Shown here in pieces: positions 23,831 through 45,654 of a DNA stretch of 64,000 bases (positions are counted from its first letter, which is position 1; every line of letters begins with the position of its first letter). The notes below the pieces were generated by a model. It was not told the DNA's origin. It did not search any database and worked only from the letters and a program-made list of their open reading frames with translations. The stretch is from an uncultured Bacteroidia bacterium. Its GTDB lineage: Bacteria; Bacteroidota; Bacteroidia; Bacteroidales; F082. Where the stretch lies: assembly GCA_902774365.1 (NCBI GenBank), contig CACYHX010000001.1, positions 1 to 64,000 of the forward strand, read 5' to 3'. A program made the position numbers and the translations under genes.

Positions 23831-23857
23831 ACAATTACACAATTCATGATGACGCCG

Positions 23858-28003: not shown

Positions 28004-28050
28004 AAAAAAAGAAATGGATGATAATCACCGGCTGGTATTATCATCCATTT
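28004..28050 (-). terminator. Strong terminator of the 28-29 kb orphan gene
   Basis: The minus-strand stem AAATGGATGATAAT pairs perfectly with ATTATCATCCATTT around an 11-nt loop and is followed by C and seven T. It lies 30 bases after the stop. Confidence 0.85.
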
Positions 28051-28079
28051 GCAACGAGCCTCAACCCTTCATCAGGCTC

Positions 28080-29228: not shown

Positions 29229-29255
29229 GGTGTTTAATTTTTTAAGGTTGCCTTG

Positions 29256-29263
29256 CAAATGTA
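29256..29263 (-). promoter_or_regulatory. TAnnTTTG -7 box of the orphan gene
   Basis: Minus strand TACATTTGC, 28 bases before the ATG at 29228. Confidence 0.6.
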
Positions 29264-29372
29264 TGACTTTCCCATGACATAATCAAGGCCCCAACCAAAC
29301 AAAGACAACAACTCGAACTGAAGCGAAAAAAACGACGATGAAACGGGAGAAGGATACCCAACAAAAAGTTAA

Positions 29373-29426
29373 GACCCATATCTCAACTTTTTGGAGGGTG
29401 GGTCTCACGAGGTTAAGATATGGGTC
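29373..29426. repeat. Inverted repeat upstream of the orphan gene
   Basis: GACCCATATCTCAAC (29373-29387) pairs with GTTAAGATATGGGTC (29412-29426), 14 of 15. TGGGTCTCACG also occurs twice as a direct repeat in and beside it. It could be an operator or a hairpin; the rest of the gap shows nothing further. Confidence 0.6.
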
Positions 29427-29471
29427 TCACGGAGTTGAAAGGTAGGGTGCTTTTGAAAAACGGCAAGGCAT

Positions 29472-29504
29472 AAAAAAGCGGACCCGACCGAAGTCGAATC
29501 CGCT
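29472..29504 (-). terminator. Terminator of the HNH-ATPase-DUF4435 operon
   Basis: The minus-strand stem AGCGGATTCGAC-TTCG-GTCGGGTCCGCT (two G/T-type mismatches) is followed by six T. It lies 23 bases after the DUF4435 stop. Confidence 0.85.
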
Positions 29505-29527
29505 GTGTATTCAATTTCAAACGGCAA

Positions 29528-30391: not shown

Positions 30392-31376
30392 GATTATTTT
30401 GATTGGCAATCATAAACAAGTCAACACTCTTTGACCACATGCTATTAAAGATTTGTGGCGAGTGGGTCGCCACAATACATTGGAAATTCCGCAAGGCAAC
30501 AATCTCCTCCAAATTCTTCAGGTAGTTCATCTGCCACATCATATGCAGTGAAAGCTCCGGCTCATCAATCAAGACCAAGGTTCCTTCTTTTGCTCTGAAA
30601 AGCAATTCGAATACTTGGACTATCATGTGTTTCTCACCCGACGAGAGTTGGGCAAGGGATAATTTGGTTTCCAACACATCATGCGCCACAAACCTAAAAC
30701 CGAATCTTTTATCGATTTCAAGATGTTTGTTGGCAAAATCACAACGGTCAATAATCCGTTTAAAAGTCTCAATTCTATCTTTATATGCCGAACTAGTCTC
30801 TGGAGACTTTAAAATAGCCTTCATGTCTTCGACATAACGGCCAATATTACGATGCGCGTCTAAATCCAGTGTCTCTTCGTCAACATCAGTTTTAAGCTTC
30901 AGTATGCGTGAATCAGTGAGATAATAGCCCGACCTGGCCACAAAAAACATTTCTATATTGCCCGAGTTACCTTCTTTATTGACGCTTCCATCAGGATGTT
31001 GAACAACTTTGTAACGTTCTATCAAATTCTCTTCAAAGTCCGTCATTCGGGTCAACGAAACCTCAAGGGCAATGGTCAAATTCTCGTTGACATCGGTATC
31101 AATAAGATTTGGCTGTTCTTCGGTTCGCTCAACGGCCACACAAAACACAGCATCTTCTTTTTCTTCATTAAAGTATATGGCAAAACTCTTAAAGGGGGTT
31201 TGAAACAATAAACCATACGATTGCTTCATAACCCCATCGACAAAACCAAGGATGGTGGTCTTACCGTAACCATTGGGGGCCGTAATGAACTTAACCTTCG
31301 ACCCATCACCATTGGCCAAAGTAATGTCATAGTCGTAGAGGTTGAAGAGCTTCTTTATTTTGATTCTGCTCAGCAT
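30375..31376 (-). CDS. AAA/ABC-type ATPase, AriA-like
   Basis: 333 residues with an ABC-like ATPase fold: Walker A APNGYGKTT (33-41), signature LSSGEKHMIVQVF (about 244-256), Walker B TLVLIDEPELSLH, and the H-loop IVATHSPQIFNS. This AAA_15/21 organisation together with a downstream DUF4435 gene matches AriA-AriB of PARIS, in which the ATPase senses phage anti-restriction proteins. It is shorter than described AriA proteins as I remember them (over 400 residues). It begins 13 bases after an HNH gene, which is not part of described PARIS. Confidence 0.82.
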   Translation of the reverse strand: MLSRIKIKKLFNLYDYDITLANGDGSKVKFITAPNGYGKTTILGFVDGVMKQSYGLLFQTPFKSFAIYFNEEKEDAVFCVAVERTEEQPNLIDTDVNENLTIALEVSLTRMTDFEENLIERYKVVQHPDGSVNKEGNSGNIEMFFVARSGYYLTDSRILKLKTDVDEETLDLDAHRNIGRYVEDMKAILKSPETSSAYKDRIETFKRIIDRCDFANKHLEIDKRFGFRFVAHDVLETKLSLAQLSSGEKHMIVQVFELLFRAKEGTLVLIDEPELSLHMMWQMNYLKNLEEIVALRNFQCIVATHSPQIFNSMWSKSVDLFMIANQNNHDAIA

Positions 31377-31389
31377 CTTTGGATTTGTA

Positions 31390-31776
31390 TTATTGATGGA
31401 AGTACAATTGTTCTATAATTTCTCGTGTCGCAGGGTTCACCGTAAGATTACGTTCTTTTTCAATATTTTTGTTTCCTTCTGAAGTAATGATAGCGGTATA
31501 CGACGGATAATCGTCTCCCTTGCTAGCATTGTTTTGGTGCTGCATGGGACGCAGGTTACGTATGTCGGAAATGGCATCTTCTTTGAAGCCTCGTTCCTTA
31601 AGGCGCGACTTTGGATAGATATGGTCAATTTCCCAACCATAGATATTATCTTGAATGCCAAATTTATCCCAAACAATCCATGCACCACAAGGATCTTTGC
31701 GGTACAAGTCAGGGTTAAAACCGTTCACCACCTGTCCTTTTTCCCACACATTTCGTTTCAGGGCATCGTTATCCAT
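31390..31776 (-). CDS. Small HNH endonuclease-like protein
   Basis: 128 residues with an HNH motif: GWEIDHIYPKSRL (about 48-60), NLRPMQHQNNASKGD (about 73-87). No zinc-binding CxxC pairs. HNH enzymes cut DNA with a beta-beta-alpha metal site. It is the first gene of a three-gene run with AriA-like and AriB-like genes, with a TAnnTTTG box upstream. It may be an added effector of the defence module or an unrelated cargo gene. Confidence 0.85.
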   Translation of the reverse strand: MDNDALKRNVWEKGQVVNGFNPDLYRKDPCGAWIVWDKFGIQDNIYGWEIDHIYPKSRLKERGFKEDAISDIRNLRPMQHQNNASKGDDYPSYTAIITSEGNKNIEKERNLTVNPATREIIEQLYFHQ

Positions 31777-31803
31777 GGCATGAAAATTCTAATCAATTCA
31801 ACT

Positions 31804-31811
31804 GCAAAAAT
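31804..31811 (-). promoter_or_regulatory. TAnnTTTG -7 box of the HNH-ATPase-DUF4435 operon
   Basis: Minus strand TATTTTTG, 27 bases upstream of the ATG at 31776, with a TTTG about 23 bases further upstream that could be the -33 element. Confidence 0.6.
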
Positions 31812-32054
31812 AAGAAAATGATGTAAAAAAAGGCCAAAATTGTCTTTAATATAGGAATTATATACAATTAGTCCCCTTATTTCTTAACCAATGGATTATT
31901 AATATTTGTATAACTGGGTCAAATAGTATATAATTGCTCTATCAATTATCAATTAGCTTCGCCGAAATCGAAGATTGGCTAACGCCGAATTAAAATTTCA
32001 ACGCAGTTAATGCTTCGCATTTCTCAATTATAAATTGTCAATTATCAATTCTTC

Positions 32055-32123
32055 CTAAATCCTATCCCCAGCATATATCATTTTCCTCCCCATCACCGCG
32101 CAAAAGATTATCTGGATATCCAT
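32055..32123 (-). pseudogene. Remnant of a third sugar transferase (last 22 codons)
   Basis: The minus-strand frame reads DIQIIFCAVMGRKMIYAGDR followed by I and a stop. It matches the C-terminal end of the two intact sugar transferases (DIQMIFCTVLGKGMEYAGER). The flanking AT-rich sequence CAATTATCAATTCTTCCT just downstream is shared with the 3' flank of copy 1 at about 24117-24140. It is a deletion remnant marking an old recombination point at the edge of the SIR2 gene. Confidence 0.85.
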
Positions 32124-32269
32124 GTCACAATCAAACAAGCCAAGACTGCAATAAAGATACTCATCAGGGTTCCGGCAAGCACATATTCGGTTTTGGTGGT
32201 CTCCTTCTCCCCAAACCTAATGATTGATTTTGCGGCATATCCAATTATTCTTAGATAATCAAACAATAT
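32108..32269 (-). other. Small membrane-protein frame or remnant beside the SIR2 gene
   Basis: An open frame of 53 codons with only a TTG as possible start (32266). It has a basic N-terminal part (DYLRIIGYAAKSIIRFGEK) and one hydrophobic helix (YVLAGTLMSIFIAVLACLIV). The end of the frame overlaps the sugar transferase remnant in another frame, which suggests a fused gene fragment rather than a real small gene. The surrounding 31.8-32.3 kb gap is AT-rich and otherwise empty. Confidence 0.4.
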
Positions 32270-32338
32270 CTACTAATTATTAGATATTTGCTTATTATCG
32301 ATGATTTATATGTATAGTTATTAAGTTCATAAATCCTT

Positions 32339-35300
32339 TTATCTCAAATAAAAAACTCGATGATACTTATTCCAAAACTCATCTTTACTGTCCCAGCCTT
32401 CCAATGTTTGGGCGATTGAAACCAATGCTTTCTCGGCCACTTCTTTTTGGCATCCCAAAAGATTCCATTGTTCTAATTCATAATCAGTATCAAAATAGGG
32501 CTGATACACCTTCAAAACGGTCTCCAAGAGTATCATAAAATTAGATGTATTGAAAAAAGTTTTGTAATGCTTTATTGCCCAACTGATATGCATGAATAGA
32601 ATTTTAAGCTCTTTTGTGTCTTTGGTTATTAGCCTACCCATCATCTGCTCGTATTCCAGCTTAAAGTCATCAATATCACGCCACTCAACCTCGGTCATTA
32701 TTCTTCTAATAGCCATGTATATTTCATCATCGGCAATTAGCTGTAAGATATTCCTTCCATAAAAACAACGTTCGTAAGTACTATACAGCAGATAATACGT
32801 TTCTTTGAAATCGTTACATTTTTCAAGTTGCTTTTGCCGTTGGTGCACAAACAGAAGCATGTCTGCAACGTGTTCCTGAAAATTGTTCTCCAATGACATC
32901 CAGTCCTTTTCTTGCTTGGTTTGTTTCCTCCGAATAATCGAACTGTTTATTTTTTCAAGCGTAATCTTCATATCGTTGTAAGCATAGGCAACTTGCTCGT
33001 CATTAAAATGCAACAACTTATCAAACCGACTTACGTTTACATCAACTGTTCCCATGTGGATTCCAGTTTTTGTGATCCCTGTATTCCATAGGTCTTCTCC
33101 TTTAAAGAAATAATCCAAAAACGAACTCACTAATTTAGGATAGTCTTTGATATGAGAAACATATCCTCCTATCAAATAGGAATCCCTCACAGCCCTGTAT
33201 TCTATTAACTTCAGTATTTTTGGTTTCTGTTTCTTATCAAGCAAGATCAATAAATTCATCACCACAAAGCTGGCTTGCTGATTTTTATGCTGTTTTATCT
33301 TTTCGGCAAATGCGACAAACTCATCATAAAGCGGAGCAAAGTCGGCTGGTTTTAAATGTTCTCGGGCTGAGATAGCGAGGGTATTAAAATGCATACCGTA
33401 CTCATCATCCCATTTCATTTTCTCGAAAATGCGTTTCAATAAGCACAACCTCAGTTCTTTCGCAGAAACGTATTCAAGTGCCTTGGCAACAAACCCATAC
33501 ATGGCTTTTTCCAAATCGAAATATCCACGATGAGTATCCGCAATATCAAGAATCTTCTCGGCATTGGCCACAAATTGTCGCAACCAATGTTTCGAACTGA
33601 CAGTAGGCAATATCTCCGAAGCAAACTGCGCCATTTTGATCTTGGTATAAAGGGGTGTTGTTTCGGTCAACAATGATAACATAATGCTCCTTAGTATGTC
33701 GGGCAACACCTTGCGCGAATCTTCATCATACATCAGCTCTTGCGCAACCAGCTTTAAGATTTTCACCTTACTATGGCGCACAATGGTATAGAAAGCCATC
33801 GGCTTAGGATATCTCTGCTTCAGCGCCCTTACTATTTCGAGCCATTCACCATCTTCCATAATTGATTGTCCGGCAAAGCAAACACCCAACTCAACGAAAC
33901 TATTTATCAATACAGCACCATTGATCACATCCGATGTGTATTTATCCAAATAATATGTTTCGTTGACATTTCCATAGGTGTTGATTTCTTCTTTTCTGCG
34001 CATTGCCGACAGATATGCCTGGTAATAGTCATAAAACGACAACAGATTCCATCGCTTCTTATAATCATCCGCCTTTTGGTAAAGCGTTGGATTTTTGTAA
34101 CCGATATACCTCAGCCAATCGGCAGCAAGCACCAGTTCTTGCGGTGAATTGAAATCCGTAGCCTCACATTTGCCGTCGGTTGGAAAATCAGCACCAAGCA
34201 GTTTCAACAAAGAACACTGTCGGACAAAGTCTATCCCAACGCGCTTATTTAACACCTCAACTTCTTTATGGGTGGGGAACTGATAATTATAAAGGTTATA
34301 CAGAATACGGGTGTATGAATCCTCTTTTATCAACTTAACATTATCCTTGCCCGATACCTGTTGAAGCAGTATCGCACGACGGGCAGCGTCATTAAATACC
34401 TTCACTATGCTTTTGTCGGTTTCTTTATCCATCAGCACAAAATCATCCTTGCTGCATGTCACATCAATCGGCATAAGAGAAGTTTGTATTGCGGCTGCAA
34501 ACACCATCTTGTCCGATTTAGGCGCACCATCTCTGAAATAGTAGCGAGCCAAAAACTGCACATCGACTGCTTTATAATGTGCAGCTGAATGCGGACTGTT
34601 AAATTTGTTGAAATTGGACAAACGGAACAAGTCGTCCGCATCTTTATCAGGCAAAACCTTAGCGGAATGTGAATTAAAGCTGGGAATTTCTACACCTTTC
34701 CACAATTTGGAGAGTGCAGAAGTATCTTTGTTGCTGAGCGGCTGCAAGTATTCAAGAAACAGTTTGATGCGTTGCTCATCATTTTTTGCTGGTGGAAATA
34801 TGTCTTTCAGAATTACTGGCTCGATGAAGTGATTCCTCAGCATCAAAGCAAAATCAGCCGGCATATCAGCAGTCCCTGAATAAATGAAGAATGAATTGTG
34901 ATCTTTATTATCTTTTGAACGGGCTTTTGTTTTGTCAAGCACATCCTTTACCCAATTTATCCAAGCTAAAAAATTGGCATCACCGCCCGAAACGCCCATA
35001 ATGCAAAACTTGTTTCTAAGCAGGTCTATTCGCATCATACTCACAAAAGCGCCGTGCTTTTCGTTGTAAGTGTCATAATCTTCTTGAGTGATGATATACT
35101 GTGCGTGCAAATCGCCGTCAAAACCATAATCGGCTTTATTGCTTTCTCTAAGGCTGCCATGTATTTTGTAAATGCTTTTTTGTTTTGCAGACAGAGAGAT
35201 TTCGTAAGAGTCTTTCACCACATTGTAGTATGTCTTTAAACTCTCTTTATCTTTAGCAACGTTGGCTATTAATTCACTTAATTCAGTTTTTCTTTCAATC

Positions 35301-35989
35301 CTATTCCGCTTTATATCGTTAATATCTTGCTTCAGTTTCTTGATGTCTGGAATTTCTTCATCGTCATTTTCCACAGCACCTTCTGCATTTAAGCTATTCT
35401 CGGGTTTTAATAAAGATTCCAGCTTTCCTATCAAAGCTGATTCTTGTTGCTCTAATTCTTTAATGGAACTCTGGAGTTCTCCGATTTTGAGTTCCGAAGC
35501 CTTTATTTTTTCTTCAAGAGCCCGCTTTGCTTCCTCACCCATGAAGAATTCCAAAGCGTTGTCATAATTGAACGTGTAGATATTTTGTACATCCAAATTT
35601 TTTAACAACAGATGGCATTCGGAATTAACAGAATTAGGCATAGGATTTCCGCCCAACAAAAGAACCGGTTTGTCATCAATTGTTTTCAAGTATGGAATCT
35701 TGCCCTCTATGTATGTATCAATGGTTTCATGATATCCAGCTTTTTTCACAATTTTCGATGCGATTCCAAGATAGCCATAGTTTTTTATAGCTTCTGCCAC
35801 AACCTTATCTTTTTGTTTGGTTTTGGTGCCATTTCCAAACGCTTCCAGAATAGCATCCTTAAGCATACCGTCCCATAATAAATAAGCCTGTTTGCTTACA
35901 TTACGGCTAAAACCAGCACCTATCAAGAAAGACATCTCACCTTCTTCGATATACCTTTTTATTTCATCTAGAATTATGGACTTATTCAT
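32339..35989 (-). CDS. Large SIR2-domain defence protein (DSR-like)
   Basis: 1216 residues. The N-terminal SIR2 domain has the NAD-binding motif FLIGAGFSRN (21-30), the TFNYDN motif (139-144) and catalytic-type His277 in YKIHGSL. A charged coiled coil (about 152-250) is inserted between the last two. Then comes a ~800-residue helical region with no recognised motif. The build matches defence-associated sirtuins, which deplete NAD on phage infection. There is no NTPase motif, so it differs from SIR2-STAND proteins. It follows the HNH gene by 61 bases and may be the last gene of the six-gene run or a separate unit. Confidence 0.82.
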   Translation of the reverse strand: MNKSIILDEIKRYIEEGEMSFLIGAGFSRNVSKQAYLLWDGMLKDAILEAFGNGTKTKQKDKVVAEAIKNYGYLGIASKIVKKAGYHETIDTYIEGKIPYLKTIDDKPVLLLGGNPMPNSVNSECHLLLKNLDVQNIYTFNYDNALEFFMGEEAKRALEEKIKASELKIGELQSSIKELEQQESALIGKLESLLKPENSLNAEGAVENDDEEIPDIKKLKQDINDIKRNRIERKTELSELIANVAKDKESLKTYYNVVKDSYEISLSAKQKSIYKIHGSLRESNKADYGFDGDLHAQYIITQEDYDTYNEKHGAFVSMMRIDLLRNKFCIMGVSGGDANFLAWINWVKDVLDKTKARSKDNKDHNSFFIYSGTADMPADFALMLRNHFIEPVILKDIFPPAKNDEQRIKLFLEYLQPLSNKDTSALSKLWKGVEIPSFNSHSAKVLPDKDADDLFRLSNFNKFNSPHSAAHYKAVDVQFLARYYFRDGAPKSDKMVFAAAIQTSLMPIDVTCSKDDFVLMDKETDKSIVKVFNDAARRAILLQQVSGKDNVKLIKEDSYTRILYNLYNYQFPTHKEVEVLNKRVGIDFVRQCSLLKLLGADFPTDGKCEATDFNSPQELVLAADWLRYIGYKNPTLYQKADDYKKRWNLLSFYDYYQAYLSAMRRKEEINTYGNVNETYYLDKYTSDVINGAVLINSFVELGVCFAGQSIMEDGEWLEIVRALKQRYPKPMAFYTIVRHSKVKILKLVAQELMYDEDSRKVLPDILRSIMLSLLTETTPLYTKIKMAQFASEILPTVSSKHWLRQFVANAEKILDIADTHRGYFDLEKAMYGFVAKALEYVSAKELRLCLLKRIFEKMKWDDEYGMHFNTLAISAREHLKPADFAPLYDEFVAFAEKIKQHKNQQASFVVMNLLILLDKKQKPKILKLIEYRAVRDSYLIGGYVSHIKDYPKLVSSFLDYFFKGEDLWNTGITKTGIHMGTVDVNVSRFDKLLHFNDEQVAYAYNDMKITLEKINSSIIRRKQTKQEKDWMSLENNFQEHVADMLLFVHQRQKQLEKCNDFKETYYLLYSTYERCFYGRNILQLIADDEIYMAIRRIMTEVEWRDIDDFKLEYEQMMGRLITKDTKELKILFMHISWAIKHYKTFFNTSNFMILLETVLKVYQPYFDTDYELEQWNLLGCQKEVAEKALVSIAQTLEGWDSKDEFWNKYHRVFYLR

Positions 35990-36050
35990 GAGATTATTTC
36001 ACTTTTCTTGGACGACATTATCACTCTCGGTGTAGCGCCGTGACGCACTT

Positions 36051-37184
36051 CTATTTCAGAATATCCCTCTTCAACTTCTCAAAACATCTGGCTCGTTGAT
36101 CTAATGGAATTTGAAAAATGTCTTCTTTGATTCTTTGAGGAGTGTACTCTGGATCAGTTAATGCAGTAGCTATCATCGCAATTCTGCTGTCAGTATATCG
36201 GCATTTAATTTCCAACCAAAACAATGCTTCCATTTTATGAAACAGGTAACGCTCGCGCAAATGGAAAATCTGAATAAAGTACTCATATTCCGGTTTCTTC
36301 ACATCCATCGTTAAATCATAGTCATCAGCTTGTTGTGTAGGTCTATTGCCTATTTTTCGACCTGGTTTTGGAATCAAGACAAACTCAACTTGGTGGTCAA
36401 AATCAAACTTTGGGCTTGTTGGGCTGAGCTCTTCTATAGGTGTTTTCCACGAACCTAAAGTTTTTTGCTTTTTCAATTTTTCATTGCAAACACTACACGA
36501 CGGCACAAAATTCATCAAGCTAATAGCCGTGATGGGGCAACTTCCTTTGTCAAGCACATGATCTAAATCAAAATGATTTTTGTCTACCGTTTTTGGAAAG
36601 ATTGAGTGAAACTTATCTCTGCTACGGAATCTTACAATATTATTGAAATCTGAAAAAGTATTATACGGTTGATGGTCATATATAGTCTGAAGAGTTGTTG
36701 GTGTTGTGATATGAAGTATTTTACTCAACTCTGTTTTGTCGGCATAATTGATTCTTTCAAGCCCTACCGCATCTCCACTAACTGAATATTTATTGATATA
36801 CGAAATACCGCAATAGTGACATACGCTCAAATCGAATTCATTGCTGGCATCCATAAAGAAATCCGCAATCGCATCATGGAAAACACTGTATGAAAAAATT
36901 GACTCTAGTTTGTCTTTATCATTCTTTGAAATAGCGTTTTCTATATTAATATAATGTTTATAATACAAAACCAGTTTATAGTACTCGGCCTTAAGTATTT
37001 TCCTTATATCAGAAGGAAAGTAAGACCGTTGAGGAAGTCTTCTCCTAACCTTTTTCCATTCTTTTTGGCAATAATCCAATCGGGTTATGCCGCCTTTTAC
37101 TTTTTGAACCGATAATGCGGCAATATATCTATTCTTAATAGCTGATCTCTTTATTGGATCAATTGGATATTTGACTGCTTTCAT
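36051..37184 (-). CDS. HNH endonuclease, PtuB-like
   Basis: 377 residues with a zinc-supported HNH site: CHYCG (122-126), HFDLDHVLDKG (204-214), N225, and CSVCNEKLK (230-238). In Septu systems an HNH protein (PtuB) works with an ATPase (PtuA) as nuclease effector. Here it overlaps the ATPase gene by 26 bases, so production is coupled. It is longer than simple PtuB proteins; the ~110-residue helical N-terminal part may bind the ATPase. The HNH call is solid; the Septu link is by gene pair. Confidence 0.82.
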   Translation of the reverse strand: MKAVKYPIDPIKRSAIKNRYIAALSVQKVKGGITRLDYCQKEWKKVRRRLPQRSYFPSDIRKILKAEYYKLVLYYKHYINIENAISKNDKDKLESIFSYSVFHDAIADFFMDASNEFDLSVCHYCGISYINKYSVSGDAVGLERINYADKTELSKILHITTPTTLQTIYDHQPYNTFSDFNNIVRFRSRDKFHSIFPKTVDKNHFDLDHVLDKGSCPITAISLMNFVPSCSVCNEKLKKQKTLGSWKTPIEELSPTSPKFDFDHQVEFVLIPKPGRKIGNRPTQQADDYDLTMDVKKPEYEYFIQIFHLRERYLFHKMEALFWLEIKCRYTDSRIAMIATALTDPEYTPQRIKEDIFQIPLDQRARCFEKLKRDILK

Positions 37185-39333
37185 TATTGTCCAAGAGTGT
37201 ATTCAACCAGTCGCGCTCCTTATTGAGTTCGCTTAATCTTTGGCGCCACATTTCCTTCGCTTTCTTAGGCTTGTATTGCTTTTGCAATTGTTCCAGCATA
37301 TATCCATAGGTCTTTTTCAAATATGCCTCTCCCAAATGTTCATGAACAAAGACAAACTCATCATATTTTTCTTCAAATGTTTTTCGTTTATTTTCAGAGT
37401 CAGCCTGATGATACAGTTTTATCATCTCATCTATCTTACTATGGGCTAACTCTCCAATGTCTGATGTCAGGAAAAAACTGTCCCTAAGCAAATCATAAAT
37501 ATTAGCCCCGAATGTATTTCCTACCTCACTGCTCTCTTCTTTACCCAAATAGAGCACGTTGCTTTCAGGGATATCTGACAGAATAAACGGAGAATGGGTA
37601 ACTATCATAATATTGATGCTCCTGATATTGACACGGTTTATATGGCACAAAGCCAGTCTTTCCAAAAGTCGTTTTATAAAAACACGCTGAAATTCGGGGT
37701 GATAATATAATTCTGCCTCATCAAATATCAAATTGATATGGTGATAGCCCACTACACGCTTTCCGTTTTCTCCTTTGATACTTGCAATATTCTTGATGTG
37801 ATAGTATATATAGCTTAGGCTGTATAACAATTGTCTTTCTCCGCTACTCATTGATTGAAGAGTCATTACATTCTTCTTTGACTTATCATTGGCTTTGGAT
37901 TTCTTTCTATATGATACTTCGGTGATAAAGAAAGGTGGAGGCAAAAGTCGCATCATATCATCGTAAGTATAATATTGCACACCTTTTAGCAAATCCTTAT
38001 CTACATCCAAACATTTCTCATCCTCTTGGTATCGTTCCTCTCTCAGATAATCCAGACACTGATGAATCTTCAATGTAATATGGTTGCAAGGACTGTGGTA
38101 TAAGCTTTTTACGACACCAAGAAGAACACTTTTATTCTGATTAAACCACAAGCTAATGTCGTTTGCATCCACACTCATTTTCACGCTACCATCTTCGTTC
38201 TGAATGGGTTCCCCTTTCTTGTTAAGCACTGGCTTTTTCAGCGCAATCAATTCTTCGAAATGCGATGCTTCCCGGTATTTTGGGTATAACGAGCATACCT
38301 TCAAGGTTTTATATGCTAAATAGAACAACGCATTCTTATCACGTGCAGAATCTTCAGGGTGAAACAGCCTTTTCAATTCAGACTGCAGGACTTGTTCCCA
38401 TAACTGTTCAAGATTAAAAAAGAGGATATCTTGTCCCGGACTAATTTCATTCCTGATAGGTTTGTCGTACAAAATAGAGAATTTGTCCTCCCAATAATTC
38501 GGGTTAAATCTGAAATTGAAACTTTCAGGAACGTAGTCATCTAAAAACTCCTTTTTCTGCGAGTGAAACAAAAGAGACAAAACTTCTATGCGTTGCTTTG
38601 CTAAGTTGTTTTCGTTATTGACATTTATTTGCCCATCTTCTCTGAAAGGCGTCAAGACCATCGGCAAGTAGTAACCATCGTTTTTATGAAACAAATAATT
38701 CAACCACTTACCATCATCATAATCAAATCTGTTGGTGTTGAATGGTGAATAATAGTCAGCAGGATTGAAAGCATATAAACTATAGTTCACACTAATAGTG
38801 TAGAAGAAACCATTCAATATTGCATCTCTTTGGATTTCTGTCAAGCCATGAATCTTAACCTCCTCGGGAACTCCATTCTCAAGTTCATAATAAAAAGTCC
38901 CTACATCATTGCATTCAATATACTTCTGTACACCATCTTGTTCAAAATGAAGTCTTCCTTCTATGCCAAAAGCATGCCCAACCTCGTCAGTTTCATCAAG
39001 GCCTTTCATTAAGAAAGTATTCTCGGCAAAGTTGTTGATAATACGATAAACAATGTCGATCAACGATGATTTCCCAGACCCATTTTTGCCGGCAATGGCA
39101 GAAATTGATATTCTGGGTAGGTTCTCATCGATATTATAAAACTCAAGAGGACAAACACTTTTTGAAACCACTGGGTATACCCCTCTTGAAACACCCATCT
39201 TATCACTATTATCACACTCGACGAAAGGATACCATCCCGGGGTTAGTGTTTTTCTAACCTCCTTTATCGTTCCTTCAAATATCTGAACCCCAATAAGACG
39301 TAAGGGTTTAGAAGTGTCCAATCTTGCTGGCAT
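37159..39333 (-). CDS. ABC-type ATPase, PtuA-like
   Basis: 724 residues. Walker A AGKNGSGKSSLID (81-93), ABC signature MSSGERQLLYSL (about 497-508), Walker B INLIFDEAELYYHPEF (about 540-555) and the H-loop IMIVTHSPFILSD. A ~400-residue insertion between Walker A and the signature carries the helical arms seen in OLD/RecF/PtuA-type ATPases. No TOPRIM domain is seen, unlike OLD nucleases. Paired with the overlapping HNH gene it resembles Septu PtuA. It lies six bases after the second NdpA-like gene, so it belongs to a larger operon. Confidence 0.85.
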   Translation of the reverse strand: MPARLDTSKPLRLIGVQIFEGTIKEVRKTLTPGWYPFVECDNSDKMGVSRGVYPVVSKSVCPLEFYNIDENLPRISISAIAGKNGSGKSSLIDIVYRIINNFAENTFLMKGLDETDEVGHAFGIEGRLHFEQDGVQKYIECNDVGTFYYELENGVPEEVKIHGLTEIQRDAILNGFFYTISVNYSLYAFNPADYYSPFNTNRFDYDDGKWLNYLFHKNDGYYLPMVLTPFREDGQINVNNENNLAKQRIEVLSLLFHSQKKEFLDDYVPESFNFRFNPNYWEDKFSILYDKPIRNEISPGQDILFFNLEQLWEQVLQSELKRLFHPEDSARDKNALFYLAYKTLKVCSLYPKYREASHFEELIALKKPVLNKKGEPIQNEDGSVKMSVDANDISLWFNQNKSVLLGVVKSLYHSPCNHITLKIHQCLDYLREERYQEDEKCLDVDKDLLKGVQYYTYDDMMRLLPPPFFITEVSYRKKSKANDKSKKNVMTLQSMSSGERQLLYSLSYIYYHIKNIASIKGENGKRVVGYHHINLIFDEAELYYHPEFQRVFIKRLLERLALCHINRVNIRSINIMIVTHSPFILSDIPESNVLYLGKEESSEVGNTFGANIYDLLRDSFFLTSDIGELAHSKIDEMIKLYHQADSENKRKTFEEKYDEFVFVHEHLGEAYLKKTYGYMLEQLQKQYKPKKAKEMWRQRLSELNKERDWLNTLLDNNESSQISN

Positions 39334-39339
39334 AACTCT

Positions 39340-40368
39340 TTACCTCTCTTTCTCAAAATACAGCGTATAATACTTCATCCCACGATCTTCATTGTAGCCT
39401 CTTTCTATATTCTCTTCACCTCCAAGCACGTTGATTTCAAAGTTGTCGTCAAGCTTTATCTTGGTTACAGCACTTACTTTTTTACGACCCAACACCTCGG
39501 CTTTGCCTTTGAATGAGTCTTTAAAGGTCATCTCCTGCTTGGCCTGGTATTCGTCGGCGTATGAATAGAAAGCCTCCGATGCTCCGGCTGGCTCAAAAGC
39601 TCGCTCTGCAATGTCGGTGAGCGACACCTCTTTGTTGCCCAGCGTCTCCACCACCTTGTTCATCATCACTGCTTTGGTGGCTTTGTCATACTCTTTAGGC
39701 AAATGCGAGATAAAGCTCTTGCACATCGACACGGCCTGCTCTGTCTGGCTGAAATCGTCGTTGCAACGCTTCAACTGCAAGAAGTCGTTCACCCAGTACT
39801 TTGCGTCACTGCGGTTGGCATTGTCCACCACACACGCCACATAGCCTTCCTCTCGTTTCAGGTTGAACACGATACAACCCTTGTCTAGCTTGTTGATACT
39901 CATACCCGTTTGACTCTCCACACTGAAGCCACCCGCTACCGGGTTGATTTGAATAAATGTGTCTTTGTTCTCCGATTTGAAAAGCCCCACGGCATCGATG
40001 GTCTCACCGTCGAGGATGCAATCCTTGAAATAGACCACATAAAAATCACCGCGCTTTATGTTGGGATGCTCGCTCATATCGTAAAGCAACTTGGCCAACT
40101 GGCGCGACTGCTCGTGAAACGAATCCCCACCATCGAATATCTTACCCAAATATGCGTACACCTCGTTCAATTCCATCGAGGTGGGGTGCCAAAAGGCGTA
40201 GCGTTCATCATCCTTGAACGCCATCAGGAAATAAGTCTTCAACAGTTCGCCCAGCGTTTCGTCCAACACAACTGGCGAATCCGACAATTCCACGCCCTCA
40301 ACCACCGCCTTGTTGCCAATCTTGTGAACAGACAGGGCCGATATCTTTACATATTCTTTGTACAACAT
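39340..40368 (-). CDS. Nucleoid-associated (NdpA/YejK-like) protein, second copy
   Basis: 342 residues. The pattern fits the 37-kDa nucleoid-associated protein family: GELLKTYFLMAFKDDERYAF near the N-terminus, FYVVYFKDCILDGETIDAVG in the middle, and YWVNDFLQLKRCNDDFSQTE followed by a helical domain. YejK binds DNA in Enterobacteria; its role is poorly known. The block SDAKYWVNDFLQLKR is mirrored by SKYWYDEFLDLKALR in the gene at 41894, so the two are divergent paralogues. It overlaps the membrane-protein gene by 22 bases. Confidence 0.72.
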   Translation of the reverse strand: MLYKEYVKISALSVHKIGNKAVVEGVELSDSPVVLDETLGELLKTYFLMAFKDDERYAFWHPTSMELNEVYAYLGKIFDGGDSFHEQSRQLAKLLYDMSEHPNIKRGDFYVVYFKDCILDGETIDAVGLFKSENKDTFIQINPVAGGFSVESQTGMSINKLDKGCIVFNLKREEGYVACVVDNANRSDAKYWVNDFLQLKRCNDDFSQTEQAVSMCKSFISHLPKEYDKATKAVMMNKVVETLGNKEVSLTDIAERAFEPAGASEAFYSYADEYQAKQEMTFKDSFKGKAEVLGRKKVSAVTKIKLDDNFEINVLGGEENIERGYNEDRGMKYYTLYFEKER

Positions 40369-41897
40369 GACACAATCGTTTTAATGATTTTAAACAAATT
40401 GGTGCTCTCAAACATGTTGAAGCACCAAACATCGATTAAAAAAAGAGACATTGCGACAAGCGTCCCTATCCAAATCAATGTATAAGTTTTTTTCTGGCAT
40501 TTGATGTAGTTTGAATGAGTCCCAACTTTATTAGGGTCACTATCTTCAAATATTTTGTCAGCTTCTTCCGTGCTCAACAGGAGCTTGTATCTTTCACGTA
40601 GCTGACCATAGTGCTTGGTATATAGTTTTTCCCTTTGCTCCAAGTTCCGCCGTGAATAGATAAGAAGCACGACTGACAATGCAATGAAAACAAACGACAG
40701 TGCAACAATCTGAGTAGAGAATGCACCCGTCCATTGCCCGTTGGCCACCACCCGCACCACCACAAGAGTGAGGAAGAAGGTTCCCAGTCCAACCACATTC
40801 TTGCGAAAATCTCCTGCGAACCCCTCCACAATATTGTTAATCTTGTCCTGTATGTCAAGCAAGTCTTTCGACAAGTCATTCCGCACCTTGATGTATTGCC
40901 TCACATTGTCTTGTTCGAAGATACGGAAGTTGGATTTGATGGCACCCAGCGTAGAAGGGTTCAATTTCAGTAACGAGTTGTCGGTGCAGTTGAGTGAAAC
41001 GATATTTCTTGAAATTACAAGCCGGTCGGAAGTATAGCCACCCGTGTAGCACCAGTCATAGATTTCGAACCATTGTTCAACCGAGGCAGTGTCGAAGGCC
41101 AAATCACGAACCATCACTTTGTCGAGCTCTGAAACCAACATTTTAAAACCTGAAATTCTGATTTTAAGTGAATCTCTCTCCACACTCGAAAAATCAGCCA
41201 CATAACATACCGACAACAGCAGGCATAGTTGGTCAAACATCTTCGCAATCGCACCTTCATTGGGTTTCTCGATTATGTGAAGATCTTCAGGTAAAATGGC
41301 GGGGAGGCTTGTTGCCCATTGGCAGTATTTCCCACAATCGTCAACTCTTTTTTTCTGCACCTCTAGCAATGGCATCTGTGGCAATGCTTCACCCTTTTTA
41401 ATCATCGCAATACTTGCCGTTTTGAATGGCTCGAACTCACCACCCCATACTTCCATAATCAGTTTATCCTGTAAGATGGAAAAGACCGCACTGTAACACT
41501 CTTTGGCTGCCAGTCCTGCGAAATATGATGTAAACTCTTGCAGGTCGTAAACAGAGAGCACCCCATCTACTTTCTTTTTTTCCACAGAATAGAAGAGACT
41601 CACTTCTTCATCGTTATATGACTGAATCTTGTTGGTGTCATACACCTGATTGATATTCGCATTTGGCTGTAGATCGAGCAAATCATCATCACCGTCAGAA
41701 ACAAGGCGTAATCGCCAACCATCTCTTTCTGAAACATCAGGTAAAACAGCAAGCAAATTCTCTTTTACTGGTGTTTTCATCAACTTAAACCGATACTCAC
41801 ATTCAAGTCGCTGAAAATCCTCGTGAAAGGCAGTGGGGATTGCCTGCACATTGTCACCGAACAATTGTGCAATATGAAGCGTAGCTACTTTCATCAC
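40347..41897 (-). CDS. Membrane protein of unknown function inside the defence run
   Basis: 516 residues. A soluble N-terminal part (about 1-365) of mixed structure, then helices VVGLGTFFLTLVVVRVVA and IVALSFVFIALSVVLLIY separated by a short loop, a charged helical hairpin (RRNLEQREKLYTKHYGQLRE), and a third helix IWIGTLVAMSLFLIDVWCF. No enzyme motif is evident. Topology suggests a large cytoplasmic domain tethered to the inner membrane, possibly an effector or anchor. It overlaps both NdpA-like genes (by 4 and 22 bases). I do not recognise the family. Confidence 0.75.
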   Translation of the reverse strand: MMKVATLHIAQLFGDNVQAIPTAFHEDFQRLECEYRFKLMKTPVKENLLAVLPDVSERDGWRLRLVSDGDDDLLDLQPNANINQVYDTNKIQSYNDEEVSLFYSVEKKKVDGVLSVYDLQEFTSYFAGLAAKECYSAVFSILQDKLIMEVWGGEFEPFKTASIAMIKKGEALPQMPLLEVQKKRVDDCGKYCQWATSLPAILPEDLHIIEKPNEGAIAKMFDQLCLLLSVCYVADFSSVERDSLKIRISGFKMLVSELDKVMVRDLAFDTASVEQWFEIYDWCYTGGYTSDRLVISRNIVSLNCTDNSLLKLNPSTLGAIKSNFRIFEQDNVRQYIKVRNDLSKDLLDIQDKINNIVEGFAGDFRKNVVGLGTFFLTLVVVRVVANGQWTGAFSTQIVALSFVFIALSVVLLIYSRRNLEQREKLYTKHYGQLRERYKLLLSTEEADKIFEDSDPNKVGTHSNYIKCQKKTYTLIWIGTLVAMSLFLIDVWCFNMFESTNLFKIIKTIVSCCTKNM

Positions 41898-42943
41898 TCT
41901 TGGTTTTCATCATGATTTTCCAAACGCTCAGCGTACTTGTAACCCTCCTCACTGCGCACCATGATATATTTCGTACCATCATCACCAAGGTGTTTCAAGA
42001 TTGTACGTTCTATGGCTGGCACATTGTCTTTAATCACAAGATCTATATCGTTTGTCAGCTTGATTTCGGTTTTCAGCTTTGCCTTAATCTTCTTGGGCAC
42101 TTTTTGAAACCGTCTGTCAAATTTATATTTATTCGGCAATTCCTTGGCTTTGGTAGCCCACGTATTCATATCAAGACCTTCCTGCTGTGGATGATAAGCG
42201 GCAAGAATGCTATCAGCATAATGGTCCATATCAAATTCACCCTCGCTCCGCATATAGCCCACCGTCAGGTTCCATAGCAAGAGGTAATCGCTCTTATAGT
42301 CTTTTCTGATGGGTATCAGAATCTTGGAGTTGATGTAGTTAAAGGCATTTTCGGTGTTTTCTTCGTCATTACGCAATGCTTTCAAATCCAGAAACTCGTC
42401 ATACCAGTATTTACTCTGCTTTGCATTGACATCATACGTCACAATATCGCCAATATCATATACCCCTGCATTGACATTGATATTGGCTGCAAACGACTTG
42501 AATATCTTTTTCTTGGTAGGCAGCCCATTCTTCTTCTCGCCAGTTGTCTCTTCAATAAACTCAGTATAGTCAGCCTTGCAGATAACCATCTTGTATTCTC
42601 CGCCGTCCGTCATCATGCAATATGCCACCAGCAAGATACCCTTCTGTATTTCTGTGATGTTATGGTAACGTTGTTGGGCGTCGTTTTCCTTTTGGAGCAA
42701 GCGTTGGGCTATGGACATGGCTTTCCCTTCACGGTCTCTATCATTAATGATGCCGTCTATCATGTTGCGCATAGTCATCTCCGTCTCTTTGAACACAAAA
42801 CGCCTATCACCGGCGTTGTCGGTTATCTGCCCGATAATATCCATCACATAATCCCTCACATTACCCTCTTCGTTCAAAGGTTCTTCTGCCACGTTGTTGT
42901 TATCATGGTCAATCTTGATAAGTTTTAGATATTCTATCTCCAT
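41894..42943 (-). CDS. Nucleoid-associated (NdpA-like) protein, first copy
   Basis: 349 residues: KGILLVAYCMMTDGGEYKMV and ICKADYTEFIEETTG, then SKYWYDEFLDLKALRNDEEN and a helical C-terminal domain ending in a beta-rich region (IKDNVPAIERTILKHLGDDG). The order of blocks parallels the gene at 39340, but overall similarity is low. It is the first gene of the tightly packed defence run; no TAnnTTTG box was found upstream. The NdpA assignment is tentative and rests mainly on shared pattern with its partner. Confidence 0.6.
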   Translation of the reverse strand: MEIEYLKLIKIDHDNNNVAEEPLNEEGNVRDYVMDIIGQITDNAGDRRFVFKETEMTMRNMIDGIINDRDREGKAMSIAQRLLQKENDAQQRYHNITEIQKGILLVAYCMMTDGGEYKMVICKADYTEFIEETTGEKKNGLPTKKKIFKSFAANINVNAGVYDIGDIVTYDVNAKQSKYWYDEFLDLKALRNDEENTENAFNYINSKILIPIRKDYKSDYLLLWNLTVGYMRSEGEFDMDHYADSILAAYHPQQEGLDMNTWATKAKELPNKYKFDRRFQKVPKKIKAKLKTEIKLTNDIDLVIKDNVPAIERTILKHLGDDGTKYIMVRSEEGYKYAERLENHDENQE

Positions 42944-43093
42944 AATGGTATGATTATTTGTATTCGACTAAATATCATTCGTTTTATTAAATACGTCTTC
43001 AATCTGCCCTCTTCCATCTTAAATATCTACTTCCACCTCAACCAAAACAAACACCCGCAAAACTCCCCAACACCTTTCAAACACCCTTACCCA

Positions 43094-43183
43094 TCACTCT
43101 ATCACAAAACGAAAACCCCCGTGTTCCTCAACTCCTTCTCCCCACAAATTTTCAAGAAAATCAGCCAAGCCGTCTTCTTTATC
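43094..43183 (-). pseudogene. Remnant: 3' end of an unidentified gene
   Basis: The minus-strand frame reads DKEDGLADFLENLWGEGVEE then HGGFRFVIE and a stop. The composition is protein-like, without any start. It lies just after a terminator-like hairpin (43186-43213) lacking its T-run. The gap from 42944 to 43093 shows nothing else. Confidence 0.45.
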
Positions 43184-43185
43184 CA

Positions 43186-43213
43186 ATGACGGCCCTCCGA
43201 TAAGGACCAGCCG
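43186..43213. repeat. Third copy of the terminator hairpin, degenerate
   Basis: GACGGCCCTCCGATAAGGAC then CAGCCGAC: the same stem-loop as at 23961-23988 and 25171-25198, with changes in both arms and no adjoining T-run on the minus strand. Confidence 0.65.
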
Positions 43214-43259
43214 ACGACTATTTCAATTAGCTTTACGAAAGATTTGCTTCTTATATCCC

Positions 43260-43382
43260 CTACCCCTTCATCATCCTCCCCACCAACCCCGTAAGCACCT
43301 GCCCCGGGCCGCACTCCACGAACTCCGTCATGCCGTCGGCGAGCATGTGCTGCACGCTCTGCGTCCAACGGACGGGGGCGAG
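43260..43382 (-). pseudogene. fabD: fabD remnant: last 40 codons of malonyl-CoA:ACP transacylase
   Basis: The minus-strand frame reads [20 protein letters not shown] then [20 protein letters not shown] and a stop. This is the conserved C-terminal end of FabD (…PVxWxQSVxxMxxxGxxxFxExGPGxVLxGLxxR…). The sequence before it is unrelated, so about 85% of the gene is missing. It is much more GC-rich than the neighbouring defence genes, as expected for a piece of core genome. Confidence 0.88.
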
Positions 43383-43391
43383 GAATAGTAT

Positions 43392-43445
43392 TTACCTTAT
43401 CTCCACCAAATAATCATTCTTGGCAAACATCTTTCCGTATTGAGG
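43392..43445 (-). pseudogene. Remnant: last 17 codons of an unidentified gene
   Basis: The minus-strand frame reads PQYGKMFAKNDYLVEIR and a stop. Protein-like, without start. It lies directly upstream of the fabD remnant and inside the same pair of direct repeats. Confidence 0.4.
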
Positions 43446-43486
43446 CGAAGCCAAGATTTATATTAGATTTACGAAAGATTTGCTTC

Positions 43487-44152
43487 TCAAATCACTTCCC
43501 CAGCATACTCCATCCCCCTCCCCAGCACCGTACAAAACAACATCTGGATATCCTTGACAAACGAATAATGCCGATAGTAATAGCAATTCAACCTAACCTT
43601 ATCAGGATAGATGACCGTGTCGTTATATTCTACCGCTATGACTTGCGCGTCGCGGGTGTCGCCTGCTTTTTGTTTTTGGGCAACATGCTCAGCTATCATT
43701 TCATCTTCGAGTCTGTATTTTAGGGTAGCAGGACCCGTGATGCCCGGCCTTAGCTTCAGCACGTCGCGGTCGTCGCCTTGCAGTTGGTCGGCATAGCCGG
43801 GCACGTCGGGGCGCGGGCCTACGAAGCTCATATTGCCGATGAGCACATCCCACAACTCGGGCAGCTCATCCAGTTTGTAGTGGCGAAGCTTGGCGCCCAG
43901 AGGGGTGATGCGGCTGTCGCCTGCCACCGACACCGAGCTGCCGCTGTGCTTCATTGTCATTGTGCGAAACTTGTGGCACTTGAACAGCTTGCCGCCACGG
44001 CCCACACGCTTCTGGACAAAGAATGCCGGACCGCCTGGCATCTTGACTTTGACCAGAATGGCAACGATGAGTAAGACGGGCCACAAGAAAAGAAGTCCGA
44101 GGAAAGAGACGATGCGGTCAAAAATGTATTTTATCAGCAACTGGAAATGCAT
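43487..44152 (-). CDS. Bacterial sugar transferase (phosphoglycosyl transferase), copy 2
   Basis: 221 residues, PglC-like. The membrane helix (about 12-34) is followed by FFVQKRVGRGGKLFKCHKFR, TM, and LDELPELWDVLIGNMSFVGP with RPDVPGY after it. It would start lipid-linked glycan assembly for the downstream capsule operon. From RITPLGAK on it is almost identical to copy 1 at 24126, whereas the N-terminal third is clearly different. It is the last gene of the long minus-strand operon, 11 bases after a GNAT gene. Confidence 0.94.
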   Translation of the reverse strand: MHFQLLIKYIFDRIVSFLGLLFLWPVLLIVAILVKVKMPGGPAFFVQKRVGRGGKLFKCHKFRTMTMKHSGSSVSVAGDSRITPLGAKLRHYKLDELPELWDVLIGNMSFVGPRPDVPGYADQLQGDDRDVLKLRPGITGPATLKYRLEDEMIAEHVAQKQKAGDTRDAQVIAVEYNDTVIYPDKVRLNCYYYRHYSFVKDIQMLFCTVLGRGMEYAGEVI

Positions 44153-44163
44153 TTTCAGAAAAA

Positions 44164-44763
44164 CTAATTCAAACTCCCTTTCGGGAAATCCTCAATGTAG
44201 ATATAATTATTGTCCATCTCCTCGATAAGCTTTGTATCTAGGACTTTCTGGGTGGAATATAAAGAAGACAGGTTGTCTTTTGAAATGGTCTCAAACATAC
44301 GCAGGTGAAGATGGGTAGCTACGTCCATTGCCGATAGGCACATCATCTTCCCTATCCCCTTGCCTTGATACTCATGATCCACCATCTTGCCAAGGAAGCT
44401 CTTGCCGATGAAAAAACAACGAAGGAAATAATAGCCCACAATGTCTTTACCGCTACAGACTAGAAAAATCAAATAGGCCTTGTTTTTGACCAGCCTCTTG
44501 ATACTTTTCTCATCAAACCCATGAGGCTGAAAATAGGTGAAAGACTCTGCTGGTTGTTTGGCAAAGAAAGTAGCCAAAGGCAGAACATCATCCATGGTTG
44601 CCTCTCGGATTTGATAGGTCCCCTGGTATTTCTCCAAACAACCAGATACACCACGAAGCCTTCTACCATAACGAAGTAGAAACAACCTAGCATTCAACCA
44701 CTCTATCAGATTCCAAACGAACGGAAGCTTGTCTTTGATTATATGGGATAATTGGTATAACAT
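44164..44763 (-). CDS. GNAT-family N-acetyltransferase
   Basis: 199 residues. The GNAT core is visible from about residue 50 (YQIREATMDDVLPLATFFAK), with the acetyl-CoA loop HEYQGKGIGKMMCLSAMDVA (about 128-147). The N-terminal ~45 residues are hydrophobic/basic and may touch the membrane. It probably acetylates an amino sugar or a lipid-linked intermediate; the position before sugar transferase copy 2 recalls PglD-PglC pairs, but the fold is GNAT, not left-handed helix. Confidence 0.8.
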   Translation of the reverse strand: MLYQLSHIIKDKLPFVWNLIEWLNARLFLLRYGRRLRGVSGCLEKYQGTYQIREATMDDVLPLATFFAKQPAESFTYFQPHGFDEKSIKRLVKNKAYLIFLVCSGKDIVGYYFLRCFFIGKSFLGKMVDHEYQGKGIGKMMCLSAMDVATHLHLRMFETISKDNLSSLYSTQKVLDTKLIEEMDNNYIYIEDFPKGSLN

Positions 44764-44778
44764 CTTGAACTTGAAAAA

Positions 44779-45654
44779 CTAAAGTGTTACTATTGCCGTT
44801 GAACTCCAATCTATTTCTTCATCCGCCTGCCGCAAACCAGCAAACTCCGTCTCATCAATCAGCCTCATCATCTTGTCGAAAGCATTTTTCTTCCCAAGAT
44901 TGGACTTAAGATAACGCACATAGCGTGCTTTTATAGTGCCAGGCTCCTTGAAATACACCTCGTAGTCTTCCTTACTCATTACCCCACTCGACTCTGGCAC
45001 CAAATCCCCAATATGAAAATAGCACATGGCATATTCGCTTTTCTTCATTTCCTTCTTTACGAAAGACAATGGAAAGAAACGGAAATAACCGCCACCCGAA
45101 TAGGCCATCTCCTTGCCCAACACGTTCGTTGTGCATATCGGGAACTCCTTGATGCGAATCCCATTATATACCACAATGCAAGGTGTTTTCTGCCCAAAAT
45201 GTGGGAACCCACCAAAATCCCTTGCTGCTGGAAATATGGAAGCGTCTCTTTCAATGCCGTTTTCTGCCAGTATTTCAAACGCCCACTTGTTATTTTCACC
45301 AATGGAAAACGCTGGGGCGCGATAGCTTTTCACTTTCTCACCGATACATTGTTCCAGGCTATCCACTGCACGATGTGTATCCTCGCGACACTCTGTTTCG
45401 GCCATCTTATTAAGCCAAGTGTGTATGTTGGAATGGCAACCAACCTCGTGACCGTGCTGTTGAATCTTTCTGATGACTTTGGGAAACATCTGTCCCATCT
45501 CGCCCACACAAAAGAAGGTGGCTTTTATTTGACGTTCATCTAATTTGTCTAGAATGGCGTCAAGATAACGATCGTATTCAGCATGTTTTTCCTTTGAACC
45601 ATTGTTTTGATGGTTGAGATACCATTCTTCTATATCAATTGTAAGGAGATTCAT
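44779..45654 (-). CDS. Polysaccharide deacetylase (NodB homology, DUF3473 type)
   Basis: 291 residues. The NodB fold starts right at the N-terminus: LLTIDIEEWYLN (catalytic Asp), ATFFCVGEMGQMFP, HGHEVGCHSNIHTW (metal-binding His pair), YRAPAFSIG, and the C-terminal AMCYFHIGDL. It removes acetyl groups from N-acetyl sugars of a glycan. No signal peptide, so it acts in the cytoplasm, probably on a lipid-linked intermediate. It overlaps the following GNAT gene's end by four bases. Confidence 0.9.
   Translation of the reverse strand: MNLLTIDIEEWYLNHQNNGSKEKHAEYDRYLDAILDKLDERQIKATFFCVGEMGQMFPKVIRKIQQHGHEVGCHSNIHTWLNKMAETECREDTHRAVDSLEQCIGEKVKSYRAPAFSIGENNKWAFEILAENGIERDASIFPAARDFGGFPHFGQKTPCIVVYNGIRIKEFPICTTNVLGKEMAYSGGGYFRFFPLSFVKKEMKKSEYAMCYFHIGDLVPESSGVMSKEDYEVYFKEPGTIKARYVRYLKSNLGKKNAFDKMMRLIDETEFAGLRQADEEIDWSSTAIVTL

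Follow-up and report, generated by a model that had tools for sequence, protein, structure and literature searches.

The window analysed here is a 64,000-nucleotide stretch of DNA from an uncultured Bacteroidia bacterium (contig CACYHX010000001.1, positions 1 to 64,000). It carries six co-oriented open reading frames on the minus strand, spanning positions 32339-42943, the first three of which encode a relative of the NA37/YejK family of nucleoid-associated proteins (NdpA1), a membrane protein, and a second NA37-type protein (NdpA2). We found that these three genes, hereafter called the trio, constitute a real and recurring module that is apparently mobile. The best overall explanation takes the trio for a candidate anti-phage module that is transferable, with a proposed block of incoming DNA resembling that of the Kiwa defence system; we put the probability of this reading at about 0.55. 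We interpret the six-gene block as three or more systems stacked at an exopolysaccharide locus, namely the trio, an ATPase–HNH nuclease pair of the candidate defence family PDC-M62, and a gene with a DSR2-like SIR2 domain, and we are highly confident that these are separate modules. The first-pass annotation of this DNA had proposed a single machine encoded by the first five genes, to which SIR2 might add NAD depletion. Its span and its junctions of -4, -22, +6, -26, and +61 bases were recovered exactly from the gene coordinates, and its view of the region as a defence island was borne out, whereas the single machine was rejected by surveys of the trio and of the pair in other genomes.

A scan of a collection of 84,980 species with a two-sequence NdpA1 alignment gave at least 500 pattern matches and identified at least five confirmed relatives of NdpA1 (loci L056-L060). 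All were from metagenome-assembled genomes of Bacteroidota, and their NdpA1 proteins were 67-72% identical to that of the window. The order NdpA1–membrane protein–NdpA2 was identical in all five of the relatives listed. The membrane-protein and NdpA2 genes of L056 were broken by frame changes, and NdpA2 of L058 ended early because of a broken frame near its end. The membrane-protein and NdpA2 genes overlapped by 22 bases in the window and in four of the five relatives (L056-L059) and were separated by a 20-base gap in L060. When window positions 27001-46000 were compared with the five loci (blastn, expect value (E) up to 1e-5), all matches lay inside the trio, as two segments in each locus. 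The first segment began no more than 18 bases from the NdpA1 start and ran to approximately the end of that gene. The second began midway through the membrane-protein gene and ended no more than 8 bases from the NdpA2 stop, the gap between the two covering the N-terminal coding part of the membrane protein. Because the DNA matches were confined to the trio, the borders of the module are those of the trio itself; L058 begins 65 bases before NdpA1, and the comparison at the upstream border therefore rests on the other loci.

The genes surrounding the trio were of differing kinds. Behind the trio, L057 carries PDC-M01A and PDC-M01B (E 7e-107 and 3.4e-52), and in front of it an M62-type pair and a gene of 637 residues. 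L058 carries HamA and HamB, which constitute Hachiman (9.2e-44 and 8.2e-200), behind the trio; next, on the other strand, come a gene of the AAA type and one related to the DUF4435 gene of the window. In L060, a DnaG-like gene (6e-110), an unrecognised gene, and a DRT UG24 reverse transcriptase (E 0) stand behind the trio, and PDC-S45 stands in front. L059 has no co-oriented gene directly behind the trio; the facing genes there encode a HerA-type protein (DUF87), SIR2_2, RloB, and an AAA protein, and TonB-receptor, DUF4249, and subtilase genes lie in front. L056 is a 6.8-kb contig that ends 2 kb behind the trio and has a HATPase_c_4/helix-turn-helix gene in front. Recognised defence genes were located near the trio in four of the five relatives, the fifth being the short contig L056, and the full trio was not found alone in a non-defence context among these loci. 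A Pfam scan of 20 neighbouring proteins, 19 of them from L057-L060 and 1 from L056, revealed no recognisable integrase or transfer gene.

The identities at L057 varied within the trio: its NdpA1 was nearer to those of L056, L058, and L059 (81-83%) than to that of the window (72%), and its membrane protein was nearest to that of the window (63.5%, against 53-56%). This pattern points to possible recombination inside the trio module.

The ATPase and the HNH nuclease behind the trio in the window matched the PADLOC models PDC-M62A and PDC-M62B, respectively (E values in Table 1), mainly over the C-terminal part of each protein, which places the pair in PDC-M62. The first-pass annotation had likened the pair to Septu; the Septu models PtuA and PtuB were indeed matched (1.6e-13 and 3.4e-3), but more weakly, and PDC-M62 is the better fit. 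In Pfam, the ATPase matched AAA_21/AAA_15, and the HNH protein gave sub-threshold matches only. The proteins of the block carry the P-loop and Walker B motifs together with those of HNH and SIR2. The ATPase was detected at E 1e-20 or better in at least 13 of 393 genomes of the order, one of them the genome of the window; two candidates were scored per genome, which makes this count a lower bound. We surveyed 13 loci from 12 other genomes of the order together with two plasmid loci. In 13 of these 15 loci, the ATPase had a neighbour recognisable as an HNH homologue; the neighbour was unrecognised in L046 and L052, and in L052 it is cut by the contig end.

These data bear on the earlier proposal that five or six genes act as one machine, in which NdpA-like sensors and a membrane component would drive an ATPase-activated nuclease, perhaps with SIR2. 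In its favour, the tight spacing in the window (+6 bases between NdpA2 and the ATPase, -26 bases between the ATPase and the HNH gene) makes a single transcript likely there, and another M62-type pair is located upstream of the trio in L057. Against it, the pair stood behind the trio in none of the five relatives over the sequence covered (2 kb of that side in L056), and the trio stood beside the pair in none of the 15 pair loci, 13 of which were informative (L032 and L051 are contigs without the upstream side). L057 is a partial exception, with the 637-residue gene between its pair and its trio. Its ATPase and HNH protein are only 32% and 24% identical to those of the window, compared with 63-73% for the trio proteins, and are less similar to them than the pairs of L044 and L045 are (ATPase 39-42%, HNH 28-29%). 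Based on the diverging identities at L057 and on guanine-plus-cytosine (GC) contents of 44.1% for the trio and 36.9% for the ATPase–HNH genes, the pair and the trio appear to differ in history, their meeting in the source genome being due to chance or to selection of recent date. We consider one machine very improbable; what stands of the proposal is that the first three genes are a conserved, coupled unit, to which the ATPase–HNH pair and the SIR2 gene appear not to belong. The 637-residue gene of L057 (L057:4851-6764, plus strand) overlaps the end of the M62-type HNH gene and matched nothing at E up to 0.01 in Pfam or at E up to 0.001 in PADLOC; it is possibly a third component of that pair.

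We next consider the proteins of the trio. NdpA2 matched the Pfam family NA37 (PF04245) with an E of 1.6e-32 and 113.7 bits, above the curated cut-off of 24.6, and aligned over nearly its full length with a profile of 11 Bacteroidota NA37 proteins at 100% probability (hhalign). It is the sole PF04245 match in the source assembly, which is 82.6% complete. NdpA1 gave sub-threshold Pfam matches only, and none of the seven members of its family matched PF04245 at E up to 1, whereas the profile of the family aligned with the same NA37 profile over residues 97-303 at 97.3% probability (E 2.3e-11). By these comparisons, NdpA2 is a true NA37 protein, a member of the family of E. coli YejK and the Bacteroidota NA37 proteins, and NdpA1 is a remote relative of that family. 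The earlier description of two NdpA-like paralogues is consistent with Pfam for NdpA2 and with profile–profile comparison, though not with Pfam, for NdpA1. In a tree of 25 proteins, NdpA1 and its Photobacterium relative were split off by a branch with 100/100 support, and NdpA2 formed its own group (100/100) among the Bacteroidota NA37 proteins; the other joins were unsure, with long branches. Unlike the trio, canonical NA37 genes in 13 Bacteroidota loci had no relative of the membrane protein within ~1.5 kb. The NdpA1 profile had matches in 15 other genomes among 395 of the phylum, 13 of which were canonical NA37. L026 and L027 were dropped as relatives, having no similarity to NA37 on a second look. 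NdpA1 also matched phrog_30064 (E 6.6e-27), a PHROG family without assigned function.

The membrane protein showed three hydropathy segments above 1.6 (~367-385, 397-415, and 474-492), in agreement with its first-pass description as a three-helix protein. At a looser cut-off, a weak fourth segment appeared (216-234, 1.59), and the L057 relative counts four; all of these counts are from hydropathy only. Identity among five sequences, calculated in 40-residue blocks, was 41-56% for residues 1-280 and 68-86% for residues 281-480, with a peak at 321-360, just ahead of the first transmembrane segment. The protein has a conserved helical stalk besides a fast-evolving N-terminal part of ~280 residues. 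In the protein of the window, the loop past the second segment contains 13 K/R against 9 D/E. Under the positive-inside rule for membrane-protein topology, this richness in positive charge suggests that the N-terminus and the loop are cytoplasmic, and the divergent residues 1-280 might be a recognition surface. The protein matched phrog_32650 (E 4.7e-45), another PHROG family without assigned function. In Pfam, sub-threshold echoes of SieB were found in three of six members of the membrane family (best E 0.052) and of DUF2207_C in four of six (best E 0.0031), and no toxin or pore family was above threshold in Pfam and PHROG profile searches. Sequence searches against solved structures returned nothing usable for the membrane family, NdpA1, canonical NA37, the ATPase, or Bacteroidales KwaB.

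In searches for the membrane protein covering 100 relatives, 393 genomes from the order, and 395 from the phylum, the only convincing match was the gene of the window itself. A further five matches in the order, weak and partial (E 1.3e-4 to 4.2e-4), were dropped; three of them had internal stops. A search of 168 genomes of the order with the phrog_32650 profile returned the source genome and a weak partial match in genome G061 (contig C15:38658-38975, L071; E 3.5e-4), which is possibly a distant relative of the membrane protein.

To place the trio beyond Bacteroidota, we searched 72,556 plasmid records by tblastn. A single record, a 2.1-Mb Photobacterium replicon, matched both proteins, NdpA1 at 26% identity (7e-19) and the membrane protein at 19% (4e-3). 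Their genes lie side by side (L007, 10165-11232 and 11238-12578; phmmer 4e-30 and 8e-18), and no relatives of NdpA2, the ATPase, the HNH protein, or the SIR2 protein were found in 27 kb around them. By sequence similarity, the NdpA1–membrane protein pairing occurs without NdpA2 and across phyla, and the two-gene pair may be the ancestral form. The Photobacterium pair had no blastn match in 5,426 E. coli genomes. IMG/VR scans returned no viral relatives, and two NdpA1 queries had no tblastn match in 50,697 phage records, the membrane protein not being among the queries. Given the PHROG families that NdpA1 and the membrane protein match, a viral or prophage source probably exists.

No convincing model match to NdpA1 or the membrane protein was found in PADLOC, NCBIfam, or Pfam, and searches of the trio with Pfam, PADLOC, NCBIfam, and PHROG profiles revealed no recognisable nuclease, ATPase, or toxin. 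Two NA37-type proteins encoded with a membrane protein that has a divergent, probably cytosolic part suggest membrane sensing and coating of incoming DNA. In this speculative mechanism, the membrane protein would anchor a complex in the inner membrane with its divergent N-terminal part in the cytoplasm, would sense phage injection or a phage protein, and would bring both NA37-type proteins onto the incoming DNA; replication and transcription of the coated DNA would then be blocked without cutting, by analogy with Kiwa. In Kiwa, KwaA senses at the membrane and KwaB binds injected DNA and halts replication and late transcription, likewise without cutting (PMC12904381). The likeness is that a membrane protein is combined with a DNA-binding protein there and with NA37-type proteins here. 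Kiwa differs in having two genes rather than three, and KwaA comprises 188 residues (L062) compared with 516 for the membrane protein. E. coli YejK is reported to bind double-stranded DNA, as cited in PMC10561277. In the DefensePredictor study (PMC13092281), 42 of 94 cloned E. coli units gave protection against phages, one of them a unit with a YejK domain. The comparison with that unit is one of its YejK nucleoid-associated domain and of its protective activity. From the defence neighbours and this one protective unit, the trio probably acts against phages or other mobile elements. That it forms a membrane-tethered DNA-binding block is a more tentative proposition, with somewhat less than even odds.

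Several results weigh against this interpretation. The six full trio loci found are not six independent cases, L056, L058, and L059 being close to one another (NdpA1 91-96% identical). The AlphaFold2 model of NdpA1 (6 close sequences) had a predicted local distance difference test score (pLDDT) of 38, unusable for testing the fold, and that of the membrane protein (5 close sequences) had a mean pLDDT of 52, too poor for a fold test, with block means mostly 60-82 from residue 341 on. The Photobacterium pair stands beside a DUF3653 phage-type gene, with no defence island recognised around it, in contrast to the full trio. In hhalign, a KwaB profile (DUF4868, 6-sequence alignment) reached 0.2% with NA37 and 0.4% with NdpA1, and the membrane family reached 0.1% with KwaA, a weak test made with a single KwaA. 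PF16162 (KwaB) had no match in the assembly of the window. Membership of the trio in Kiwa is unsupported by these profile comparisons (0.1-0.4%), although the trio may work like Kiwa. Moreover, PAPI-1 NdpA2, a YejK-family regulator borne by an integrative and conjugative element (ICE), itself gave no shift of the tested promoter DNA (PMC8565334).

The PAPI-1 protein also introduces a different reading, in which the trio, rather than being a defence system, serves to maintain or regulate mobile elements and enters defence islands through shared mobility. Together with TprA, PAPI-1 NdpA2 raised ICE transfer (PMC8565334), temperate Pseudomonas phages carry ndpA/yejK in their integration cluster (PMC10305613), and an ndpA gene is located on an integrated element (PMC10561277); the PHROG matches of NdpA1 and the membrane protein are consistent with these cases. 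No membrane partner or adjacent double NA37 is described in the available parts of those sources, however, and both the defence genes beside four of the five relatives and the lack of integrase or transfer genes among the 20 scanned neighbours make this role unlikely. Another reading assigns the activity to the membrane protein, which would disrupt the membrane on sensing infection, as in abortive infection, while the NA37-type proteins restrain it or sense the state of the DNA. The predicted transmembrane segments, the conserved stalk, and the weak SieB and DUF2207_C echoes would fit such a killer, but no toxin or pore family was found above threshold and the structure model is of low quality; we judge the chances of this reading to be small.

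The genes behind the trio raise the further question of whether it serves other systems. In four of the five well-covered loci (the window, L057, L058, and L060), the next co-oriented genes are parts of defence systems and start 6, 51, 74, and 92 bases past the NdpA2 end, respectively. The trio could accordingly be a portable upstream unit, tethered to the membrane, that presents or senses DNA for varied effectors (M62, PDC-M01, Hachiman, and DRT). This is rather unlikely: L059, the fifth well-covered locus, breaks the pattern, stacking of systems is usual in defence islands, and the downstream systems are known to be complete without the trio or are listed as such in the PADLOC models. It is quite unlikely that the trio represents an immune module of a new class, whose membrane-tethered nucleoid-type pair would be an interchangeable front end, shared by systems with no other relation, that captures DNA entering at the membrane and passes it to the downstream effector, whether an ATPase-nuclease, the Hachiman helicase-nuclease, or a reverse transcriptase. 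An anti-phage module in its own right, with a proposed Kiwa-like DNA block, is the reading that we prefer.

Table 1. Genes of the block, its borders, and the neighbouring PARIS-like genes in the window
Feature	Position	Strand	Remarks
NdpA1	41894-42943	-	349 residues; first trio gene; remote NA37/YejK relative by sequence
Membrane protein	40347-41897	-	516 residues; second trio gene
NdpA2	39340-40368	-	342 residues; third trio gene; NA37 family
ATPase	37159-39333	-	PDC-M62A candidate defence family, Septu PtuA-like; PADLOC E 4.1e-38
HNH nuclease	36051-37184	-	ATPase partner, from the candidate defence family PDC-M62B; PADLOC E 1.1e-20
SIR2-domain protein	32339-35989	-	1216 residues; DSR2-like in the SIR2 domain only
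Sugar-transferase 3' remnant	32051-32127	-	Downstream border of the block
Intact bacterial sugar transferase	43487-44152	-	Bac_transf E 2e-52; upstream border of the block
Small HNH gene	31390-31776	-	PARIS-like neighbour, separate from the trio
AriA-like ATPase	30375-31376	-	PARIS-like neighbour, separate from the trio
DUF4435/AriB-like gene	29528-30409	-	PARIS-like neighbour, separate from the trio

In an exopolysaccharide region, the block is flanked by two copies of one kind of gene, one of them broken and the other intact (Table 1). The remnant is a 77-nt repeat that is 75% identical to 43483-43559, at the end of the intact transferase gene, and 21 residues of its translation match the C-termini encoded by both intact genes, at 24126-24797 and 43487-44152. 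A stretch of 46 bases from the 3' region of the latter copy has a second copy at 43220-43265. The window contains these two intact sugar transferases, both on the minus strand, plus the remnant tail of a third copy. The block had been described as bordered by gene remnants; one remnant was confirmed, the other border being an intact gene. The block had also been called AT-richer than the core genes. With a GC content of 38.8% for the SIR2 gene, in addition to the values given above for the trio and the pair, this is true in comparison with positions 1-28000 (53.5%) but not with the upstream exopolysaccharide genes (39.5%). The M62 pair of a Segatella copri plasmid (L010) is likewise located in a glycosyltransferase cluster, with a sugar transferase ~6.5 kb upstream of it. 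A Fic/DOC-family protein with a C-terminal match to a MarR-type helix-turn-helix is encoded at 22763-23860 (minus strand). A Bacteroidetes-type promoter pattern was found at 31805-31838, by the small HNH gene, a weak signal given three matches in the window against 2.4 expected; none of the three stands before NdpA1.

The SIR2 gene matched Pfam SIR2_2 (E 4.6e-12) and PADLOC Dsr2 (E 3.9e-20, best stretch residues 254-422). Against the NCBIfam Dsr2 model, it scored 57.5 bits over residues 255-356, compared with a cut-off of 1400, and the protein is DSR2-like in its SIR2 region rather than a full-length DSR2. Its plasmid relatives likewise matched within the SIR2 domain only. Residues 801-876 resembled bacterial Death-like domain 2, though below threshold (E 0.0014; 19.5 bits, with a cut-off of 25). 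Next to the block, the PARIS models AriA and AriB matched neighbouring genes (3.5e-28 and 1.2e-8), with the small HNH gene as an extra gene ahead of them. In L047, a homologue of this small HNH gene is located ~1.3 kb from an AriA-like gene.

The new part of the block is the trio. We found no description of the NdpA1–membrane protein–NdpA2 trio in the literature covered, a scope largely outside subscription papers, preprints, and the DefensePredictor tables. Nucleoid-associated proteins have mostly been studied as chromosome organisers. If the proposed function is correct, DNA coating at the membrane, besides DNA cutting, would serve bacterial immunity, and would do so in a system of separate origin beside Kiwa. 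The trio would also offer a possible set of partners for the YejK-domain unit of the DefensePredictor study.

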